Shown here in pieces: positions 5,292-14,043 of a stretch of DNA of 20,568 nt. The stretch is from a virus: positions 5,338 to 25,905 of the IMG/VR virus record IMGVR_UViG_3300030107_004381, one strand, 5' to 3'. The notes under the pieces were generated by a model. The model saw nothing but the letters and a program-made list of their open reading frames with translations. It was not told the DNA's origin and searched no databases. Position numbers and translations under genes: made by a program. Each line of letters opens with the position of its first letter. The stretch's first letter is position 1.

Positions 5292-5319
5292 ATTATAACA
5301 TACTTTTAGGATTTGTCAA
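5292..5319 (-). promoter_or_regulatory. strong sigma70-type (early-like) promoter ahead of primase-thyX-nrdJ
   Basis: On the minus strand TTGACA (5314-5319) and TATAAT (5292-5297) are both perfect consensus hexamers, separated by 16 bases. Transcription should start near 5285, about 30 bases before the primase ATG. The -35 hexamer contains the TGA stop of the upstream kinase gene (5316-5318). In T4-like phages such promoters drive early genes through unmodified host polymerase, so this probably starts an early nucleotide-metabolism unit. Seen directly; timing is inferred. Confidence 0.85.
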
Positions 5320-6005
5320 CCCCTTCTGTTGATTGCATGTTGATTTTTTATCCAAGCATTTGCTGCTCGTGAGGATGGTTTTTGTTTGATTAATTTTCCA
5401 ATTTCTACGAATACTTGAGTAAAAATATCTTCACCCGCAGAATTGTTATCTACTACAAGAAAGTTTCCTCTACCAAAATAAGATTGAAATTTACCTACAT
5501 TTTCTTGGACTGCATTCCACATTTTAGTTACTTCACTTTTCTCTAATTGTCTAGCCCTCATTTCATTTCTTTGTTGAGCAACTTCAAGTGATGTATTGAC
5601 AAATATCATATAAGTATCATAACCAATCTTTCTAAGAGCATCAGATGATTTCTTTATCTTATTATAATCTTTACCAGTTCCATCAATGAGAAGTCCAAGA
5701 CGGCCTTCAATGAACCCTGCTTGTTGTCTAGAGACAATCTTTTTGGCTCTATCTCTTATTGCTTGACCTTCATCTGAGTAGATATCCTTTGCTGTAGTTG
5801 CTTTACCAGCATCTTTCAACATTTTGGTAAACAATGGATCTGAATCAACTATCTTCAATCCATAAGGATTACTCTTCCCTACACCAGATGCAGAAGCGAC
5901 ATAAGATTTACCAGAGCCTGGGCCACCAGCAGTGAAGAATGCTTTGAATATGCCAGGGTCATTAACACCTTCATATAATTTTATGAAGTCTTGGAATGTT
6001 ATCAT
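5316..6005 (-). CDS. P-loop kinase (zeta-toxin/polynucleotide-kinase-like) with capsid-targeting-like N-terminus
   Basis: A 229-residue nucleoside/nucleotide-kinase-fold protein. Walker A is GGPGSGKS (residues 27-34), and GLLIDGTG (about 104-111) is a Walker-B-like strand. NTSLEVAQQRNEMRARQ looks like the Arg-rich lid. It resembles the P-loop kinases related to zeta toxin and polynucleotide kinase seen in many T4-like phages; the substrate cannot be read from sequence. The first residues, MITFQDFIKLYEG, are a looser version of the leader shared with six other proteins here and contain an LxE|G site like that cut by the T4 head protease. Start: TAATG overlap with the upstream gene after an excellent GAGGAGGAAG ribosome-binding site. 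Its stop codon lies inside the -35 box of the primase promoter. Confidence 0.85.
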   Translation of the reverse strand: MITFQDFIKLYEGVNDPGIFKAFFTAGGPGSGKSYVASASGVGKSNPYGLKIVDSDPLFTKMLKDAGKATTAKDIYSDEGQAIRDRAKKIVSRQQAGFIEGRLGLLIDGTGKDYNKIKKSSDALRKIGYDTYMIFVNTSLEVAQQRNEMRARQLEKSEVTKMWNAVQENVGKFQSYFGRGNFLVVDNNSAGEDIFTQVFVEIGKLIKQKPSSRAANAWIKNQHAINRRG

Positions 6006-6346
6006 TACGCCTTCCTCCTCGCTTTAGCAGCTTTGACAATAGCGATCAATTCAGTATCCATTGGTTTATTTATTGCTATCTCATATTCTCTCTTAAATTG
6101 TGCATCAGCCATTCGTTTATCTTTCATCCTTAATTGTAGTTCTTTGCGTCCAGTAACAGGATGTTGTGGAGAACGTACCGCTCGTGTATGATAAAAACTT
6201 GATGGATTCATAAGATAATCATTAAATTTATATACATCATCAAACCATGCACCCCCTGTATACTCAGGATATTTTTCATAATAAGCTGGGGATACATCCT
6301 TTTTGAAACCCGATGATTCAGTTAGATGTTCTTGAAAAGTTTTCAT
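6005..6346 (-). CDS. unknown small phage protein with capsid-targeting-like leader
   Basis: A 113-residue basic protein with no family I recognise. It begins MKTFQEHLTESSGFKKD; the first ten residues differ from the T4 internal-protein leader MKTYQEFIAE at only a few positions and end in LTE|S, a plausible prohead-protease site. The remainder has an aromatic-rich part (PAYYEKYPEYTGGAWFDD) and a Lys/Arg-rich C-terminus ending AKARRKA, as expected of a DNA-associated internal protein. It overlaps its upstream neighbour by ATGA and its downstream neighbour by TAATG, and an AAAGGAAAG ribosome-binding site precedes the ATG. It therefore belongs to a tightly coupled operon with the ATP-grasp ligase and the kinase. 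Confidence 0.8.
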   Translation of the reverse strand: MKTFQEHLTESSGFKKDVSPAYYEKYPEYTGGAWFDDVYKFNDYLMNPSSFYHTRAVRSPQHPVTGRKELQLRMKDKRMADAQFKREYEIAINKPMDTELIAIVKAAKARRKA

Positions 6347-6666
6347 TTGTTTCTTTCCTTTGTTATTTTTTTCATCTTTTCTATGTACTTCCTGTACACG
6401 TTGGCAGGGCCAGTTTTACCCATAACTCTTGCTCGTTGTTCCATCGCTATTGCAGCTTGTATTTTGTGTGCATGAGTTTTCCCTGAGTTTTCTATCTTTT
6501 TAACAGACTTTTCAGCATCTTCTGTAGTTGCAAACTTGAGTCCATGTATCGTACCTTTTGGATTCTCATCCGTATAAAGGTCTGAGTGTTTGTCACTCCC
6601 AGCTGGTTGACCTTTCTTTCTTGGTATTCTGGGCCCTTCTTCTAAATGTTGTTTAAAGGATTTCAT
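6343..6666 (-). CDS. conserved basic phage protein with capsid-targeting-like leader
   Basis: A 107-residue Lys/Arg-rich protein. After the leader MKSFKQHLEE|G comes a segment with features I recall from conserved proteins of phages and large viruses: HSDLYTDENPKGTIHGLKF, then HAHKIQAAIAMEQRARVMGK and a C-terminal YRKYIEKMKK helix. No function is known to me for that family. The strongly positive charge would suit contact with DNA inside a capsid. It overlaps the ATP-grasp gene upstream and the next gene downstream by ATGA, so all are translated in a chain. The leader ends in LEE, compatible with the [LI]xE cleavage rule of T4-type prohead protease. Confidence 0.8.
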   Translation of the reverse strand: MKSFKQHLEEGPRIPRKKGQPAGSDKHSDLYTDENPKGTIHGLKFATTEDAEKSVKKIENSGKTHAHKIQAAIAMEQRARVMGKTGPANVYRKYIEKMKKITKERNK

Positions 6667-7676
6667 TTTTCAGAGTAAATTGAGGTTATTGGTTGTGTTT
6701 TGAGCCAATTTGTTCTATCCTTAAAGATTGTAAGAATATCTTTTGCGATATTCTTTTTAGTTGCTTTCTTGTATCCTTTAGTACCTGGCGTAGAATTTAT
6801 CTCTATAAAAATAGGACTATCTTTCTCTCTATCTTTTGCAGGAATAAAATCCACTCCAACCCATAATCCATCAACTGCTTTGGCTGCCTTTTCAACATGA
6901 TCTTGTTCTAATTTTGTCAAAGTAAGTATTTCTGGTACTGAACCAAGTGATACATTACTTCTAAAGTCTTTCTTAACGATAGGTCTTTTTATAGCACCAT
7001 AAAATTTTCCAGCGATGACATGAGCTCTCACATCATATTCCGCTACAATAAAGTCCTGTAGTAGTACACCCATATTTGGGTCTAACTTATACAACAATTG
7101 AGTTGTGGCAGATAGTGACTCTTCTGATTCAATTTTAACTACACCAACTCCTAGTGAACCAGTTATTGTTTTCAAGATTACAGGATATTTTGAACCCAAT
7201 CTATCAAATGCATCAAGTGCTCTATCTTGGTGATGTATCAAAACTGTTTTTGGTTGAGTTAAACCAGTTTCAGCTAAAATTAAACTTGTGCGATACTTAT
7301 CAGAAGTTGATTCCATACAGAGTCTATTGTTGATGCAACAAACACCACCTCTTTCAAGTTGTGTCAATAAATCCATCCAAGACTTTTTTCTTGTAATAGG
7401 AGCCCTGACAAAAACTATAGTATTTTCATCAACTAGAAAACCTTTATCATCATCTATACCATGTATGAATCTCTTACCATCTGAATCAAGTTCTGAGTAA
7501 GCTCCACTAACATCAACCTTATATCCTTTTAATCCTAATTTCTCACCCTCAGTAATAAAGTCATCAGCAGTTGCCTCTGGATCATCTGGATCATCTGGAT
7601 CTTCAAACCACAAATATACAAACCGATATGATGTTTCTTTTATCTGTTCCTGCAGATGTGCACCAAATGTTTTCAT
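6663..7676 (-). CDS. RimK-type ATP-grasp ligase with capsid-targeting-like leader
   Basis: A 337-residue ATP-grasp enzyme of the RimK/glutamate-ligase type, which joins an amino acid or similar amine to a carboxylate through an acyl-phosphate. Visible elements are TSLILAETGLTQPKTVL at the domain entry, the Gly-rich ATP loop KTITGSLGVGV (159-169), DVRAHVI (about 215-221) and the metal-binding FIEINSTPGTKG (280-291). The frame is open to 7736, but I start at the ATG at 7676. It has a GGAAGGA ribosome-binding site, leaves a clean 25-base gap to the previous gene, and gives the leader MKTFGAHLQE|Q shared with neighbouring proteins. A Asp-Pro-rich stretch near residue 26 comes from a 9-bp DNA repeat. 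RimK itself adds glutamates to ribosomal protein S6; the target here is unknown. Confidence 0.88.
   Translation of the reverse strand: MKTFGAHLQEQIKETSYRFVYLWFEDPDDPDDPEATADDFITEGEKLGLKGYKVDVSGAYSELDSDGKRFIHGIDDDKGFLVDENTIVFVRAPITRKKSWMDLLTQLERGGVCCINNRLCMESTSDKYRTSLILAETGLTQPKTVLIHHQDRALDAFDRLGSKYPVILKTITGSLGVGVVKIESEESLSATTQLLYKLDPNMGVLLQDFIVAEYDVRAHVIAGKFYGAIKRPIVKKDFRSNVSLGSVPEILTLTKLEQDHVEKAAKAVDGLWVGVDFIPAKDREKDSPIFIEINSTPGTKGYKKATKKNIAKDILTIFKDRTNWLKTQPITSIYSEK
7576..7601 (-). repeat. 9-bp tandem repeat inside the ATP-grasp gene
   Basis: The plus-strand unit tctggatca occurs almost three times in a row and encodes the DPDDPDDP stretch near the N-terminus of the ATP-grasp protein. The unit is in frame, so copy-number change would lengthen or shorten an acidic linker without a frameshift. 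Confidence 0.75.
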
Positions 7677-7680
7677 GTAT

Positions 7681-7687
7681 TCCTTCC
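7681..7687 (-). promoter_or_regulatory. ribosome-binding site that fixes the ATP-grasp start at 7676
   Basis: GGAAGGA on the minus strand sits 4 bases before the ATG at 7674-7676. It is far better than anything ahead of the longer frame starting at 7736, and the start it selects yields the shared MKTF..HL.E leader. Confidence 0.75.
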
Positions 7688-7701
7688 AATAATATTTAGA
7701 T

Positions 7702-8331
7702 TCATTTTGGTATTCTACTTTTTTCTGCTCTTCCACGATTTACAGACTCATCTTCAAATCCTACTATCCTTCCATTTCTATGAGATGCATCTTTACCATC
7801 ACCATTTCCATAAGTACCTCTCCTTCTGTTGTACCGATTCAACTCTGCACGATACTTCTTACTTTTCCTTGAAGATTGAAATTTTCTATACTCATCCTTA
7901 TAATCTCTTTCCTCTACCATCGCAACAGAATCTTTAGGATTACCAGTAAGGTTTGCAAGGGATATATGATATACTCTTCCAGAATCGTATGTACCTTGTA
8001 AAGAGTCCATTACATATTCTTTCCAATCCTGTTGATTTTTTAATTTAACGTACCAAGATTTAGAACCACCCTTTTCCATTACTTTTACGATTGGGTCTAT
8101 GTCTATAGAAAACTCTGGTTCATCAAAGTCTTTAGCTTTAATTCTACCTCTGAGTTTTTGCCATCCACTTCCAGATGCGAGGGTTATGTGTAAATCACTA
8201 TCTGATATTGCTACTGCGTCTGAATTTTTGGATAAAACCTGAGCTCTAATCATCTTGATTTTTTTTAATAGTGAACCTTCCACTTTCCATTTCAGAACTG
8301 ATTCTACTTTTATCATAAATACTTTCGGCAT
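7702..8331 (-). CDS. 2H-phosphoesterase-like protein with a conserved phage C-terminal tail
   Basis: A 209-residue protein. Two H-x-[ST] motifs, DLHITLAS (His48, Thr50) and VYHISLAN (His122, Ser124), lie 74 residues apart in matching strand contexts. That is the hallmark of the 2H phosphoesterase (LigT/cyclic phosphodiesterase) fold. Such enzymes open or cleave cyclic and 2'-5' phosphodiester bonds. The T4 anti-CBASS protein Acb1 is a viral member that destroys cyclic oligonucleotide signals, so a counter-defence role is possible but not shown. The last about 60 residues are Arg/Lys/Gly-rich (RGTYGNGDGKDASH, NRGRAEKSR) and look like a separate conserved phage tail of unknown role. No Shine-Dalgarno is evident; a strong hairpin lies 12 bases upstream. 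An internal ATG at 8316 is an alternative start. It lacks the capsid-type leader of its neighbours. Confidence 0.7.
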   Translation of the reverse strand: MPKVFMIKVESVLKWKVEGSLLKKIKMIRAQVLSKNSDAVAISDSDLHITLASGSGWQKLRGRIKAKDFDEPEFSIDIDPIVKVMEKGGSKSWYVKLKNQQDWKEYVMDSLQGTYDSGRVYHISLANLTGNPKDSVAMVEERDYKDEYRKFQSSRKSKKYRAELNRYNRRRGTYGNGDGKDASHRNGRIVGFEDESVNRGRAEKSRIPK

Positions 8332-9846: not shown

Positions 9847-10075
9847 CTAATATGGCTCCAAATGATAAGTGAAACATCGCACCTCCTTCTAGTGTAAGAG
9901 GCATCCATCTACTCGCATCACATACCAAACCTTTGGCAACCATCATGTTACAATAACTATCCATTTTTATATTCCAGACTACTGGCCCTATGAAGAAATC
10001 ACAGAGACAAATGAAAAGATAAACAAGTCCTGCCCAATCTCTCCAATGTCTGTTAATCGTTTTGTTTATACTCAT
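9779..10075 (-). CDS. small membrane protein, holin-like
   Basis: A 98-residue protein with two hydrophobic segments: WAGLVYLFICLCDFFIGPVV (about residues 14-33) and TLEGGAMFHLSFGAILGATAW (about 63-83). A charged C-terminal tail (KKKEELEAHN) follows. Size, topology and the LEGG..FHLSFGAILG segment resemble proteins annotated as phage holins, which open the inner membrane at lysis. The frame is open to 10144, but the ATG at 10075 overlaps the upstream TGA (ATGA), the junction used throughout this region, so I prefer it. No obvious Shine-Dalgarno, consistent with coupling to the PycTM-like gene. It overlaps the lipase gene by 68 bases. No endolysin is recognisable in the window. Confidence 0.6.
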   Translation of the reverse strand: MSINKTINRHWRDWAGLVYLFICLCDFFIGPVVWNIKMDSYCNMMVAKGLVCDASRWMPLTLEGGAMFHLSFGAILGATAWKKKEELEAHNSRSDSTT

Positions 10076-10650
10076 AAAATATTTTGTATTATAAAAACTG
10101 CAATTGCACCAGACATTCCCCAAAGAAAACTCATATAAGACCATTTGAGAAATTTGTATTTATTGAGAGCAAGAACTTTTCCTTGTCCGTAAATATCTCC
10201 AGCCATTGCATCATAAATTTTATCATCAGTCATTAAAGTATCTACATAATCTTCCTTATACTCTTCTATTGGAAGATGTGCAAAATGTCCAAAAAATAAA
10301 GGATTAAATAGTGGTGATTTTCTATCTATCTCCTGTGTACCTTTTATTTTTGGGTAATTCGTACTGGGTATAATTGCAAATATTGCAAATAATAAAGAGA
10401 AAAAACTACCAACTGCAAATGTTAATAATGGATATTTCATCACTTCATTATCTAAGTTTGCAATAGTTATCGAAAATACAATAGATGCAACAGTAATCAT
10501 AATGTTCGCCTTTGCATCTGCCATCAATCCTAATCTCATTTGATTACCATGATTGACTCGTAAGATGTTATCTACAGCAGTACGATTCTCTGGTACTTTA
10601 TCAAAAGGATTTATACCATTTCCTTTTGAGTATCTTGTAACGTGTGACAT
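10072..10650 (-). CDS. Pycsar-effector-family membrane protein (PycTM / DUF5706)
   Basis: A 192-residue membrane protein that I recognise as the DUF5706/PycTM family. MADAKANIMITVASIVFSI (residues 43-61) is the family's AD.KANI first helix. A second helix runs about 74-95. The cytosolic part NPLFFGHFAHLPIEEYKEDY (116-135) and DIYGQGKVLALNKYKFLKW (152-170) is very like family members, and a third helix covers about 172-190. In bacteria, Pycsar effectors of this family disrupt the membrane after sensing a cyclic pyrimidine nucleotide made during phage infection. Here it sits in a phage between an AapJ-like gene and a holin-like gene (ATGA overlap), with no cyclase in the window. An AAGGAAA ribosome-binding site supports the start. 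Role in the phage unknown. Confidence 0.82.
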   Translation of the reverse strand: MSHVTRYSKGNGINPFDKVPENRTAVDNILRVNHGNQMRLGLMADAKANIMITVASIVFSITIANLDNEVMKYPLLTFAVGSFFSLLFAIFAIIPSTNYPKIKGTQEIDRKSPLFNPLFFGHFAHLPIEEYKEDYVDTLMTDDKIYDAMAGDIYGQGKVLALNKYKFLKWSYMSFLWGMSGAIAVFIIQNIL

Positions 10651-10661
10651 AACATATTTCC

Positions 10662-11825
10662 TTATTTAAGAGGGGGTGCGTAAAGTAATCCTCCATGAAT
10701 GTATAATCGGTTCAATCCTCTGTTTAATCCTAATTTTTTCTTAATGTTGCGGTCAAATATTTCTTCGTAATTTCCTACTTGTTTGATTATATCATAAGAC
10801 CAGTTTTCAGTCAACCCTAACTTTGCACCAAGATGTGGATGATCTTTACCATTTTTTTCACCCATGAATCTTTGAACATTTGGGTCTTTATTTTCTATAA
10901 ATCTGTCAATATTTTTTGAGTTTATACCCATCTCTTCTGCAATAAAAAGAACATATATTGTCCATCTTACTATGTCTGACCATTTTTGGTCACCATATTT
11001 TACAACTGGCCCGAGTGGTTCTTTTGATATTATTTCTGGTAAAATTATATGTCTTTCTGGTGAATTAAATCCTAATCTATTAGATGCTAATCCAGATCTA
11101 TCAGTTCCATACATATCACAGTCACCTCTAAGATAAACATCTTTTGTTTTTTCATTGACCGAAACAGCAACTGGAATGTACTTTATTTCGTGAAGTTCCA
11201 TAAAGTCTGCGATATTTTTAGCAGCAGTACCAGAACCTTTGAAACATATTTTAGCACCATGCATCTGTTTAGCAGAAGAAACACCTAAAGATTTTTTTGT
11301 AATAAATCCTTGACCATCATAATAGGTTGTTGGTAAAAATTCAAATTTCTTTAGTACATTTCTTGTAAATGTATATGTGGTTGCTGCAGATAACATATCA
11401 ATAGTACCATCTTTTAAATATGCAAATCTAGTGATACCATTTACTATTTCGTATTCTACAGCATCTGAATCTCCAAATACTGCTGCAGCCACTGCTCTAC
11501 ACATATCAACATCAAATCCCTTCCATCCTTCATCTTCATTATCATATGTCTCTTCAGAAAAGCCAGGAAATTCATCATTAGTTCCACAAATAATATAACC
11601 TCTTTCCATTACTCTATCAAATGTAGATCCGTATGTTGGATTATATTCTTCTAATTCTCCTGTATCTCTCAGTTTTATAGCTTTAAGTTTTTCTAACTGC
11701 TGTACCAATTTGTTAATGTTATCGTCAATGCGTTCACTAGGTGGACTTCCTTCAACTGAACTGTTAATAACCATTACCCAAAATAACCACACTAAACAAA
11801 CGACAACCTTACCACTCATAATCAT
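10662..11825 (-). CDS. aapJ: AapJ/YhdW-like general L-amino-acid ABC transporter substrate-binding protein
   Basis: A 387-residue periplasmic binding protein. A signal peptide (hydrophobic core about residues 7-21, cut probably near SVEG|SPP) is followed by a short coiled-coil-like stretch (about 36-60). The binding domain begins STFDRVMERGYIICGTN. Many segments match AapJ closely: GFDVDMCRAVAAAVFGD, YYDGQGF, the ILPEIISKEPLGPVV motif, GNYEEIFDRN and the terminal GGLLYAPPLK. AapJ binds a broad range of L-amino acids for the AapQMP transporter; no permease or ATPase gene is in the window, so it would have to use host AapQMP or act as a sink. The start overlaps the cytochrome-like gene (ATGA). 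The helical spacer after the signal peptide is unusual for the family. A clear host-derived gene. Confidence 0.9.
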   Translation of the reverse strand: MIMSGKVVVCLVWLFWVMVINSSVEGSPPSERIDDNINKLVQQLEKLKAIKLRDTGELEEYNPTYGSTFDRVMERGYIICGTNDEFPGFSEETYDNEDEGWKGFDVDMCRAVAAAVFGDSDAVEYEIVNGITRFAYLKDGTIDMLSAATTYTFTRNVLKKFEFLPTTYYDGQGFITKKSLGVSSAKQMHGAKICFKGSGTAAKNIADFMELHEIKYIPVAVSVNEKTKDVYLRGDCDMYGTDRSGLASNRLGFNSPERHIILPEIISKEPLGPVVKYGDQKWSDIVRWTIYVLFIAEEMGINSKNIDRFIENKDPNVQRFMGEKNGKDHPHLGAKLGLTENWSYDIIKQVGNYEEIFDRNIKKKLGLNRGLNRLYIHGGLLYAPPLK

Positions 11826-12292
11826 TTTAAAGTCCTGTAAACTTCCATAAGTTCATCATCTGAAATGGGAGAAGTCATTGTATAATATCTTTGATGACCT
11901 ACTCTCATGAATGCTTTTATGTCAGAAAAACTTGGATACGTTGATTGTAGGTTATGAAGTAGGTAGTCAGGGTCTAAGTGACAAGTTGCACATTGATTAT
12001 CTCTTGCAAAAACTCTTGTTGATATTTTAAATCTTTCACTTTGAACTAATACTGCTGAAAGGTCTTTTTCCATCCATGTTATTCTTTCATCCATATCTGG
12101 AATAACTAGAAAAATTAAATATATAAGAAGTCCGATAATAACATAGATGAAAGATTTACTCGCAACTATTTGGTCTTTAGCTGCAAGTTCCATTTGTTGA
12201 ACTTCTTCTACTTTTTTGTCTATTTCCTCAATGTCATGTTGTAGTATTTTTGTGTCTTTTTCGTTTCCTGTATTTTTATCCTGTTGTGCCAT
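11822..12292 (-). CDS. membrane-anchored c-type-cytochrome-like protein (single CxxCH)
   Basis: A 156-residue protein in three parts. A soluble acidic coiled coil (about 13-40) comes first, then one strongly hydrophobic helix (about 47-64). The C-terminal domain carries CATCH (101-105), the CxxCH signature for covalent heme attachment, and would face the periplasm where c-type heme is inserted. Downstream, Met129 or Met139 (YYTMTSPISDDELMEVYRTL) could be the sixth iron ligand; the last segment resembles the closing helix of cytochrome c. This would need the host Ccm system. Single CxxCH motifs can arise by chance, but the layout, with a membrane anchor and helix ending, makes heme binding plausible. 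The start has an AAAGGAAAA ribosome-binding site and the stop overlaps the AapJ-like start. Confidence 0.7.
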   Translation of the reverse strand: MAQQDKNTGNEKDTKILQHDIEEIDKKVEEVQQMELAAKDQIVASKSFIYVIIGLLIYLIFLVIPDMDERITWMEKDLSAVLVQSERFKISTRVFARDNQCATCHLDPDYLLHNLQSTYPSFSDIKAFMRVGHQRYYTMTSPISDDELMEVYRTLK

Positions 12293-12295
12293 AAT

Positions 12296-12643
12296 CTATT
12301 TTCCTTTTCCAACTTGATTCAACTTTTTAGTTATTTGTTGTTGAAACCATTTCAATACAATGGGAATACTTACATTAGAAGTAAGTCCAAATAAAAAACC
12401 GACAGGATATCGGTAAGAAGCATAAGGTGCTAATTGTGGAATATTTGTAAATACTATTGAAATTAATAAATATCCTGTTAAAGACATTCCCATATTGATT
12501 AAAAGATCAAATCCTATCAACCAACCATGCCCTTCATATTTTTCTTTATTGTCTGTTCTGTAATTAAATAGAAAAAGCCAAAATGATGCAAATAATATAA
12601 TTGCCATCATTATCAGCTCATCTATTCCAAAAAGTTGATCCAT
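12296..12643 (-). CDS. three-helix membrane protein, possible holin
   Basis: A 115-residue very hydrophobic protein with predicted membrane helices at about residues 9-27, 42-66 and 80-98. Its C-terminus is basic and Gln/Lys-rich (KWFQQQITKKLNQVGKGK). This size, helix number and charged tail fit a class I holin, but there is no sequence feature specific to one, and two other small membrane proteins in this window also could be. It starts 22 bases after the HAD-like gene and ends 3 bases before the cytochrome-like gene, so it opens the envelope cassette. The ribosome-binding site is weak (AATAAAG). Confidence 0.7.
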   Translation of the reverse strand: MDQLFGIDELIMMAIILFASFWLFLFNYRTDNKEKYEGHGWLIGFDLLINMGMSLTGYLLISIVFTNIPQLAPYASYRYPVGFLFGLTSNVSIPIVLKWFQQQITKKLNQVGKGK

Positions 12644-12665: not shown

Positions 12666-13178
12666 TTAGGGGAATCCAATCTTCTTCAAATCATTTATGG
12701 TAGAAGCGGCATCAGTATGAAGTATTCCTATACCTCCGGCAGATTCCCATTCTTTGATATTACCTATGTGGTCATCTATCAGTATATTGGGTCTTTTGTC
12801 TCTACCATCCATAGCAAAGTTTTTCTTGTTTTTTCTTAGTACTATTTTCATTCTACTTGATGGAAGTTTGAAATTTTTCATCATCCATCTTGTTTTATCT
12901 TTCCAAGCTCTTTTGGCAATTGGGCCTCTTGAATCTCTTGGAACTGCTGTAAGCATAAATGGTTGGAATTGTTTTATATATCCCCACAAAACATCAGCAT
13001 CTGGCATCTTTGGGAGTTGTAAAAATAAATCTACTGGTAAATCTTGCCAGAGTTCATCTTTAAATTTTGTTCCAAGATAATTAGAGGTAAATTTTACAAA
13101 ATCAGCAACCACACCATCCATATCACAATAGATTTGTGGGTTATCAAATTCTATTATATGTTGCTGAAAACTTTTCAT
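12666..13178 (-). CDS. HAD-family 5'(3')-deoxyribonucleotidase-like phosphatase with capsid-targeting-like leader
   Basis: A 170-residue HAD hydrolase. Motif I is YCDMDGVVADF (nucleophile and acid Asp residues about 19 and 21), motif II lies in FMLTAVPR, and motif III/IV is NILIDDHIGNIKEWESAGG. This arrangement is that of the NT5C-type 5'(3')-deoxyribonucleotidases, which remove phosphate from deoxynucleoside monophosphates; the precise substrate is inferred. The N-terminus, MKSFQQHIIE|F, is the shared leader of this window and ends in IIE, compatible with prohead-protease cleavage. The ATG abuts the stop of a 29-residue membrane ORF (TAAATG). A phosphatase would fit either nucleotide salvage or the T4-like idea of an injected enzyme. 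Confidence 0.85.
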   Translation of the reverse strand: MKSFQQHIIEFDNPQIYCDMDGVVADFVKFTSNYLGTKFKDELWQDLPVDLFLQLPKMPDADVLWGYIKQFQPFMLTAVPRDSRGPIAKRAWKDKTRWMMKNFKLPSSRMKIVLRKNKKNFAMDGRDKRPNILIDDHIGNIKEWESAGGIGILHTDAASTINDLKKIGFP

Positions 13179-13268
13179 TTAAAGTATTCCTATATACCAA
13201 AAAAAATAACCAAGTGCAGCAAAAAATATAAGAAAAACAATTGCAAAATCTGTAGGACTAAGGTTCAT
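13179..13268 (-). CDS. 29-residue single-helix membrane peptide
   Basis: A short ORF that fills the gap between two larger genes. It begins at an ATG at 13268 that overlaps the upstream TGA (ATGA) and stops at 13179, directly against the next ATG (TAAATG). The product begins MNLSPTDFAIVFLIFFAALG and ends YFFWYIGIL: almost one hydrophobic helix (about residues 7-28). Perfect fit into the gap and the coupling junctions on both sides argue that it is translated. It could be a small regulator of a membrane complex or lysis protein; there is no family to compare it with. Confidence 0.65.
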   Translation of the reverse strand: MNLSPTDFAIVFLIFFAALGYFFWYIGIL

Positions 13269-13531
13269 TTGTCGTCTATCTCGTAATTAAAAGCTTTAGT
13301 ATTGCTTTTTGCTGGTTTTGCCATAGGTCTTAACCAAACCTTGATTACCATTTCACCACTTGGAGTTGGAAATGTAAAAGTTGGTTTACCTTTTTTCATC
13401 TTGTAATCATCGGTTGCATTTACAGGAAATTTAGCTAACTTTCTTTTTTTTATCTCATCAGAAACATATTTGTCTCTATCATCAGCTGTAAAAAATCTTA
13501 CTTCATTAATATGGTCTTTAAATGTTTTCAT
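13265..13531 (-). CDS. unknown small protein with capsid-targeting-like leader
   Basis: An 88-residue basic protein with no recognised family. The leader MKTFKDHINE|V is followed by a Lys-rich segment, then KGKPTFTFPTPSGEMVIKVW, which looks like a beta hairpin. It overlaps the gene before it by one base (TAATG) and the 29-residue membrane peptide after it by ATGA. Its small size, positive charge and leader resemble T4 internal head proteins, but beyond the leader there is no similarity I can see. Confidence 0.75.
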   Translation of the reverse strand: MKTFKDHINEVRFFTADDRDKYVSDEIKKRKLAKFPVNATDDYKMKKGKPTFTFPTPSGEMVIKVWLRPMAKPAKSNTKAFNYEIDDK

Positions 13532-14043
13532 TAGTATTTTACATCTTTTAGTGATTTTATTCTTTTGATTTTACTTCCAGGCCCTTGACCTATAAAATCT
13601 CCTGTTAAGTCATAAGTAGGTGGCCATGCATTCCATCCTTTTTCACCTTTTTCTATTTGTTTCTTTTGAAATGCTACATTTCCAAATTTCTTAATATAAT
13701 CAAGGGCATCTTTTTTATCATAAGTTACTAATCTTGCTGTTCCTGTCCAACCCATAACTGTTTGACCATCTGTGTTTACTCTATCATGTCCAACATGGAA
13801 AGAATTTTTAGGATATAAGTCATCACCCCTTGTATCTTTAGTAATGGTCATGTATATGGCAGTACCTTCTTCTTTTCCTTTTGGTTGTCCACTAGCAGCT
13901 TTACCTTGTTCTGAATCATCCATATACAGAAACTTTGAAAAAACTATATTTAGTTTTCCATGTTTACCACTATTACTTAAATCTTTGGAAGAATATTTGG
14001 TAATGTCTTTTTCTTCATTGATATGTTGTTTAAATGATTTCAT
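13531..14043 (-). CDS. unknown protein with capsid-targeting-like leader
   Basis: A 170-residue protein. The frame is open to an ATG at 14058, but the ATG at 14043 overlaps the stop of the upstream coiled-coil gene (ATGA) and gives the leader MKSFKQHINE|E, so I start there. The body has a beta-rich look (GKLNIVFSKFLYMDD, GTAIYMTITKD, GWTGTARLVTYDKKDALDY) and a basic C-terminus. I do not recognise it. It is followed at TAATG by another leader-bearing protein, so the two are made together. Confidence 0.75.
   Translation of the reverse strand: MKSFKQHINEEKDITKYSSKDLSNSGKHGKLNIVFSKFLYMDDSEQGKAASGQPKGKEEGTAIYMTITKDTRGDDLYPKNSFHVGHDRVNTDGQTVMGWTGTARLVTYDKKDALDYIKKFGNVAFQKKQIEKGEKGWNAWPPTYDLTGDFIGQGPGSKIKRIKSLKDVKY

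Follow-up and report, generated by a model that had tools for sequence, protein, structure and literature searches.

A predicted 2H phosphoesterase with a modular C-terminal tail in a putative phage head-cargo block

The window analysed here, a stretch of 20,568 nucleotides taken from an IMG/VR virus record of 25,905 bases (positions 5338-25905), encodes a predicted 2H phosphoesterase within a putative head-cargo block (Table 1), and we consider, at a probability of about 0.5, that this enzyme is injected into the host and heals RNA ends early in infection. The computed basis for this comprises a 2H fold carrying both catalytic motifs, a modular tail, neighbours sharing an N-terminal tag and a constant kinase gene, from which we infer catalysis, packaging, injection and the RNA substrate. 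The cargo block, together with a wider family of apparently head-tagged 2H enzymes, provides a stronger lead than the Acb1 and Pycsar connections drawn in a sequence-only reading of this DNA.

Table 1. Features of the window discussed in the text (positions count from the first letter of the window).
Feature	Position	Strand	Basis
Predicted 2H phosphoesterase domain with C-terminal tail	7702..8331	minus	ORF, 209 aa, ATG at 8331
Possible alternative start of the 2H ORF, residue 6	8316	minus	Homologue start at same position in L084, L105, L139
Predicted 2H phosphoesterase fold, residues 10-131	7939..8304	minus	AlphaFold model built on A6, whose residues 10-131 match 2H structures
First catalytic motif HIT, residues 48-50	8182..8190	minus	H and T invariant in 20/20
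Second catalytic motif HIS, residues 122-124	7960..7968	minus	HxS in 16/19, HxT in 3/19
Family signature ANLTGNPKDSV, residues 126-136	7924..7956	minus	Pattern searches; alignment A10
C-terminal tail module phrog_6437, residues 142-209	7705..7908	minus	Profile match, E 3.2e-13
RimK-like ATP-grasp protein, next gene downstream of 2H; starts MKTFGAHLQEQ (capsid-targeting-like)	6663..7676	minus	RimK 3.7e-32
Small cargo-block protein, starts MKSFKQHLEE	6343..6666	minus	
Small cargo-block protein, starts MKTFQEHLTE	6005..6346	minus	
P-loop kinase, Zeta_toxin/AAA_33-like, starts MITFQDFIKLYEG	5316..6005	minus	Pfam 8.5e-11
NT5C/HAD-type phosphatase-like cargo-block protein, starts MKSFQQHIIE	12666..13178	minus	phrog_2643 3.8e-22
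Two cargo-block proteins, starting MKTFKDHINE and MKSFKQHINE	13265..14043	minus	ORFs at 13265 and 13531
PycTM homologue, part of neighbouring membrane-protein cassette	10072..10650	minus	Pfam PF18967 1e-19; PADLOC PycTM 3e-15

H-x-[TS] motifs occur only twice in the 209-aa minus-strand ORF, HIT at 48 and HIS at 122, which bears out the two HxT/HxS motifs 74 residues apart of the sequence-only reading. An AlphaFold model computed from the 30-row alignment A6 (mean pLDDT 72.2, pTM 0.61) places both motifs on strands (48-53 and 122-127), with pLDDT by 10-residue block of 58-95 over residues 1-140 and a mean below 55 from residue 171 on; an earlier prediction from a 6-row alignment was poor (pLDDT 45.7) and that model was discarded. 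The first 24 rows of a Foldseek search of the PDB were all 2H enzymes or solved phosphodiesterases, none passing E 0.001, the best being drCPDase (E 0.0044), E. coli LigT and, at rank 3, human Usb1, with Acb1 at rank 10 (E 0.049). VIA-align returned 37 rows at Z 4.7-8.7, among them archaeal LigT-like (8.7), T. thermophilus (8.6), drCPDase (8.1), LigT (8.1), Acb1 (7.9), MHV ns2 (7.7), AKAP18 (7.2) and Usb1 (7.1); rows within Z 1 of each other are tied, so that the fold says 2H and nothing narrower. In the alignment with LigT (5ldo chain C; model 10-129, chain 6-132) H122 falls opposite LigT H125 if the alignment is gap-free. The proposal of a 2H phosphoesterase is thus supported both by the motifs on strands of the modelled fold and by the end points of the LigT alignment, and with the motifs in register and the modelled 2H fold we place the protein in the 2H phosphoesterase superfamily as a predicted, active-looking enzyme. 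In the BFVD the first-ranked match was a ‘Swiss Army Knife 2H phosphoesterase’ of an uncultured Caudovirales phage (A0A6J5RQR0; E 1e-4, 16% identity), a likeness by fold only.

At the level of sequence, the 2H gene belongs to a phage family absent from the family libraries scanned. The catalytic part matched no relevant family in Pfam, NCBIfam or PADLOC, and PHROG matches cover the tail only; the LigT models PF02834 and PF13563 did not match the window protein, and among 15 family members only weak hits were seen (PF13563 in 6/15, LigT_PEase in 2/15; best 0.0087). Searches of PDB sequences with the window protein and the profiles A2, A4 and A5 found no 2H enzyme. When 50,697 phage records were searched with tblastn, neither the whole protein nor a distant relative had a match at E up to 1, a search in which the low-complexity filter may hide the basic tail; a 36-residue piece likewise matched nothing, and the catalytic part at E up to 10 gave one weak partial match (E 0.6, Haloarcula virus). 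The bacterial genome scan contained no relative of the 2H protein. Searches of the literature for a capsid-borne 2H enzyme, covering mostly papers outside subscription, did not name this family, and Acb1 combined with virion gave no match. Rfam and tRNA searches of the window were also empty, and a hairpin between the glycosyltransferase and 2H genes scored barely better than shuffles (z -1.1).

Relatives were therefore collected from contigs (given here as L numbers): the close relatives L001, L002, L003, L083 and L084/L085 came from tblastn-confirmed scans and L105 was reached via the kinase neighbourhood. The DNA pattern HxSxANLTGxPxD, covering the second motif and the signature, recovered 16 stretches, and a looser version recovered 27 in IMG/VR. 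Since the search pattern held only the second motif and signature (HxSxANLTG...DS), conservation of the second motif is partly by construction; the upstream HxT/S was absent from the pattern, and an in-frame H-x-[TS] nevertheless lies 72-104 residues upstream in 24 of the 27 stretches. The other three are L112, which lacks an upstream motif, and L137 and L127, which are cut by the contig end. Alignment A10 holds 20 sequences, the other 19 being 25-94% identical to the window protein, with K14, H48, T50, S92 and R119 invariant; H48 and T50 are kept in 20/20, and H122 with S/T124 in all 19 sequences that reach the second motif. Each set of duplicate contigs (L081, L088, L091 and L114 of L001; L086, L090 and L137 of L002; L089 and L092 of L083; L110 of L105; L111 of L084; L113 of L085) entered the contig counts and A10 only once, as did the 2H proteins that L143 and L144 share with L142 and L141; the 27 pattern stretches are counted as listed. 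L002, whose 2H domain is cut by the contig end, was excluded from A5 and A10, and A10 also leaves out L112 and a third group (L115, L118, L119, L126 and L127). Members of this third group carry H-x-S upstream of H[VI]S[ILV]ANLTG...DSIARPE(N/D)C, with a spacing of about 76-104 residues where complete. L112, from an unrelated-looking phage, has a 76-aa ORF (5368-5598) ending RRFHISLANLTGKPKDSVR, which has the latter half of the 2H signature but no first motif and is perhaps a remnant or a recombinant.

The C-terminal tail noted in the sequence-only reading is confirmed as residues 142-209 (GTYGNGDGKDASH), of which 144-205 match phrog_6437 (86 positions). That reading called it an unexplained addition; it is instead a common marine-phage module that also occurs outside 2H enzymes. 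At least 600 IMG/VR stretches were matched by pattern and at least 587 of them encode a relative; among the best 80 of these relatives, 77 match from residue 93 onward only, mainly in the tail, and the ORFs of these 80 loci include 37 that start MPxxSKxQ(R/Q) and 41 with at least two ESVNE/GKLTE-like linkers. The tail on its own, for which a search in other phages had been proposed, is a separate gene in L085, where it starts MKTFEEY and accompanies a tail-less 2H gene; in L098 the tail is preceded by MKTFLEY, and the module also lies inside large unrelated proteins. The 2H enzymes of L083 and L105 have a different C-terminal domain in place of the tail, and that of L001 has both. In alignment A9 the other 16 tails are 76-91% identical to that of the window. 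Standing alone, occurring in other proteins and missing from some 2H enzymes, the tail is a mobile module and not special to this enzyme. From its pattern ASH...NR a small HNH-like fold would be conceivable, but from residue 171 on the model is of low confidence (mean pLDDT below 55). In L070 and L079 the module is fused to a protein starting MKVVFTFGRFNPPTIGH, which by motif we take to be nucleotidyltransferase-like. If the reading is right, this module, recurrent in many marine phage proteins, becomes a candidate packaging or nucleic-acid-binding handle.

The alternative C-terminal domain is carried by the 2H relatives L001, L002, L083, L105 and L138 and not by the window protein. Set beside that of L001, the window protein is shorter by a C-terminal domain of roughly 130 residues around 7676-7705, its stop falling about 26 bases before the ATP-grasp ATG, and on this sequence comparison the absence looks like a recent loss. 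The domain also occurs as a gene of its own, in L045 (7603-7989, starting MKSFSTYIFER) and in L046 (8451-8855, reading MKTFSTYIFER near its start).

The genes around the 2H gene share a feature of known capsid-targeted proteins. Six ORFs of the window (at 6663, 6343, 6005, 12666, 13265 and 13531) start with MK[ST]FxxH[LI]xE, and the kinase at 5316 makes a seventh with its start MITFQDFIKLYE; T4 ipI starts MKTFKEF. T4 internal proteins are described (PMC9026906) as targeted by N-terminal propeptides of 10-19 residues that are later cut by the prohead protease, with residues 4 and 7 mainly responsible in IPIII. In the window clade no such tag was found on the 2H protein itself (0/5, the window 2H and four relatives), and 0/55 ORFs share one with the window 2H; the case for its putative packaging consequently rests on the block and the tail. 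Among more distant loci, the first 15 residues of the 2H protein match 1-5 other ORFs of the same locus at 7-14 of 15 positions in six of nine (L116, L117, L120, L122, L123 and L125), whereas over residues 16-30 these pairs agree at only 0-2 positions of 15. The misses are L128 (6/15) and L121 and L124, whose proteins were taken from non-start codons and counted as misses; L140-L142 lay outside this test. L108 encodes a 1295-residue protein that combines a kinase relative with what its opening residues suggest is the domain of the 6343-6666 ORF, a fusion in keeping with the mosaic injected proteins described by Iyer et al. 2017. A further MKSFKGYLTE-type protein recurs in L105 (2074-2958), L085 (4877-5776) and L093-L101, with a conserved (T/A)xFHxTD...SISAF and no convincing Pfam match in the four copies scanned; by resemblance we assume that it is possibly an ADP-ribosyltransferase.

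The substrate is most likely RNA ends, which are favoured because the neighbours are RNA- or nucleotide-end enzymes, every link except the kinase being patchy. The kinase is present in 8/8 window-clade contigs that extend to it (the window, L001, L083, L002, L139, L105, L085 and, as a partial copy at E 6e-5, L138; L003 and L084 end earlier). A gene resembling CCA-type tRNA nucleotidyltransferases (PolyA_pol head and RNA-binding domains) lies next to the 2H gene in L105, L084, L085 and L138, an NT5C-like phosphatase gene is its direct neighbour in L120 and L122, a related kinase is found 1.7 kb away in L124 and an RNA ligase (PF09414, 4.7e-16) about 5.4 kb away in L117. In the window itself no RNA ligase was identified, the adjacent ATP-grasp protein being RimK-like. 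Phage 2H enzymes are described as clearing 2',3'-cyclic ends for RNA repair (PMC9503650, PMC7824862); for the 2H domains of injected polyvalent proteins, Iyer et al. 2017 (PMC5512222) state that they were never seen with RNA ligases.

On the preferred reading, the products of the cargo block would be small enzymes loaded into the heads of T4-like phages by means of the N-terminal targeting peptide and injected with the DNA, and in the window 2H protein, which has no such peptide, the phrog_6437 tail may take over packaging or bind DNA or RNA. After entry the enzyme would act on RNA, opening 2',3'-cyclic phosphates or cutting 2'-5' links. The kinase and phosphatase, joined in some relatives by a tRNA nucleotidyltransferase or an RNA ligase, would work with it, so that RNA damage done by host defence RNases could be healed early. 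A bolder version, which we put forward tentatively and at less than even odds, is that T4-like and other tailed phages inject a pre-loaded RNA-healing kit of separately targeted 2H enzyme, kinase and HAD phosphatase, some with the CCA-type nucleotidyltransferase, that mends tRNA cut by defence RNases before phage genes are expressed, the window 2H enzyme having swapped its N-terminal peptide for a C-terminal tail of the same duty. If so, the few injected proteins known from T4 would widen, in marine phages, into a broad and modular set of nucleic-acid enzymes carried in the head, and the head-cargo setting makes it possible to test for either RNA repair or the disarming of host alarm signals just after infection.

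A rather unlikely alternative is that the protein is Acb1-like and on entry destroys CBASS cyclic di- or trinucleotide signals or signals of the 2'-5' oligoadenylate type. Acb1 is a 2H enzyme of the same motif logic, several Acb1-named proteins were among the BFVD matches, and the structural comparison with Acb1 and LigT suggested in the sequence-only reading returned the 2H fold; a preference for Acb1 did not follow from it, because Acb1 and the LigT-like structures, which score equal or higher, are tied. With E allowed up to 1, the Acb1 models PF23474 and phrog_755 did not match the window protein but recognised T4 Acb1 as a positive control (2.7e-60 and 5.3e-68), and phrog_755 weakly matched 2/15 family members (best 0.0069). 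A profile comparison of the 2H family with an Acb1 alignment gave E 0.0029 with both motifs in register, but was dropped as support because an unrelated control alignment scored 0.0048; against single sequences the values were 0.019 for LigT and 0.23 for T4 Acb1. These comparisons give Acb1 no special standing. Acb1 has (PMC9117128) the catalytic motifs H44/T46 and H113/T115, the aromatic stackers Y12, W74, F107 and W147, a base contact by E141 and a C-terminal lid of residues 145-152, and eight of 12 distant members of the present family end 13 residues past the second motif, apparently leaving no space for a lid with E141 and W147, the alignment to Acb1 being weak at the other positions. The genomic setting of T4 acb1 (57B) speaks for the alternative: it adjoins ipI, the gene of a capsid internal protein (in L109, ipI at 1592-1879 and Acb1 at 1953-2411), and signal degradation is among the roles proposed for injected 2H domains by Iyer et al. 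2017 (PMC5512222). The start of T4 Acb1, MMEFKDFST, resembles that of ipI, MKTFKEFTST, and M-x-x-F lies near the start in 5/6 further Acb1 sequences; judged from these starts, Acb1 itself might be head-targeted.

Iyer et al. 2017 (PMC5512222) also propose RNase or Usb1-like roles for injected 2H domains. That the window enzyme is of Usb1-like or RNase type and trims or cuts the RNA of the host, by itself or in relatives together with their extra C-terminal domain, is in our view unlikely. Human Usb1 stands high in the Foldseek ranking, and HVSL (PF09749) matched 4/15 members weakly (best 0.013), but these matches lie below the cut-off and the window protein had none. HVSL is, we assume, the Pfam family that holds Usb1. 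By motif, the extra domain of L001, L083, L105 and L138 looks like a BECR RNase, and that of L002 is presumably RNase-like as well. The BECR naming was not adopted: Pfam matches were weak and unrelated (PerC 0.007, DUF3867 0.054), and the PDB returned designed proteins and a dehydrogenase. The window protein does not have this domain. That the 2H enzyme is instead a partner or antagonist of the nearby PycTM, controlling cyclic CMP or UMP, we regard as highly improbable. The sequence-only reading had placed the 2H gene near the PycTM cassette; the homologue is real (Table 1), a small ORF, a lipase gene and a glycosyltransferase gene lie between, and no link specific to the 2H gene emerged. PycTM is near the 2H gene in 5/8 informative clade contigs (the window, L001, L003, L138 and L139), but is missing near it in the other three (L105 and the nearly identical L084 and L085), and the cassette follows cargo blocks in L035, L045 and L046, where the 2H profile found no 2H gene. 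The 25.9 kb record yielded neither a class III cyclase (PF00211) nor a SMODS gene, an absence that is weak because the record is incomplete. Cyclic-nucleotide control ‘from both sides’, as had been suggested, is not supported by these findings. Nor is the suggested anti-Pycsar role supported: Apyc1, the enzyme known to counter Pycsar, is a metallo-beta-lactamase by fold and shows ‘no structural or mechanistic homology to Acb1’ (PMC9117128).

In the cassette itself (10072-12643) PycTM is accompanied by a pair of small membrane proteins, of which one carries a CxxCH heme-type motif, and by an SBP_bac_3 solute-binding protein (5e-12); the gene order recurs beside the cargo block in L001, L003, L045 and L046.

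Set against known systems, the predicted RNA-end enzyme of the window shares the 2H fold with the LigT/ThpR and CPDase branch (5ldi/5ldo, drCPDase 5h7e, archaeal 1vdx and T. thermophilus 1iuh), where its best VIA-align matches lie at 13-17% identity, and E. coli LigT has two HxT/S motifs, with H43 and H125, at matching places; unlike that branch it has the ANLTGxPxDS signature, the C-terminal tail and a phage cargo-block setting. With Acb1 (T4 57B; FBB1 7t26/7t27) it has in common the 2H fold, a phage gene and the two HxT/S motifs, with the same tetrad logic (HxT/HxT in Acb1, the second motif here mostly HxS); it differs in having no PF23474 match. The block resembles the T4 internal proteins ipI and ipIII in that a short N-terminal MK(T/S)F-type peptide is common to unrelated small proteins, from which targeting in the window block is inferred; unlike them, the window 2H protein does not have the peptide. 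A parallel in delivery is offered by the 2H domains of phage polyvalent proteins, which according to Iyer et al. 2017 (PMC5512222) are parts of mosaic fusions with presumed head packaging and injection, whereas here the 2H gene stands alone, among small genes that each have their own tag, and is associated with kinase, nucleotidyltransferase and, once, RNA ligase genes.
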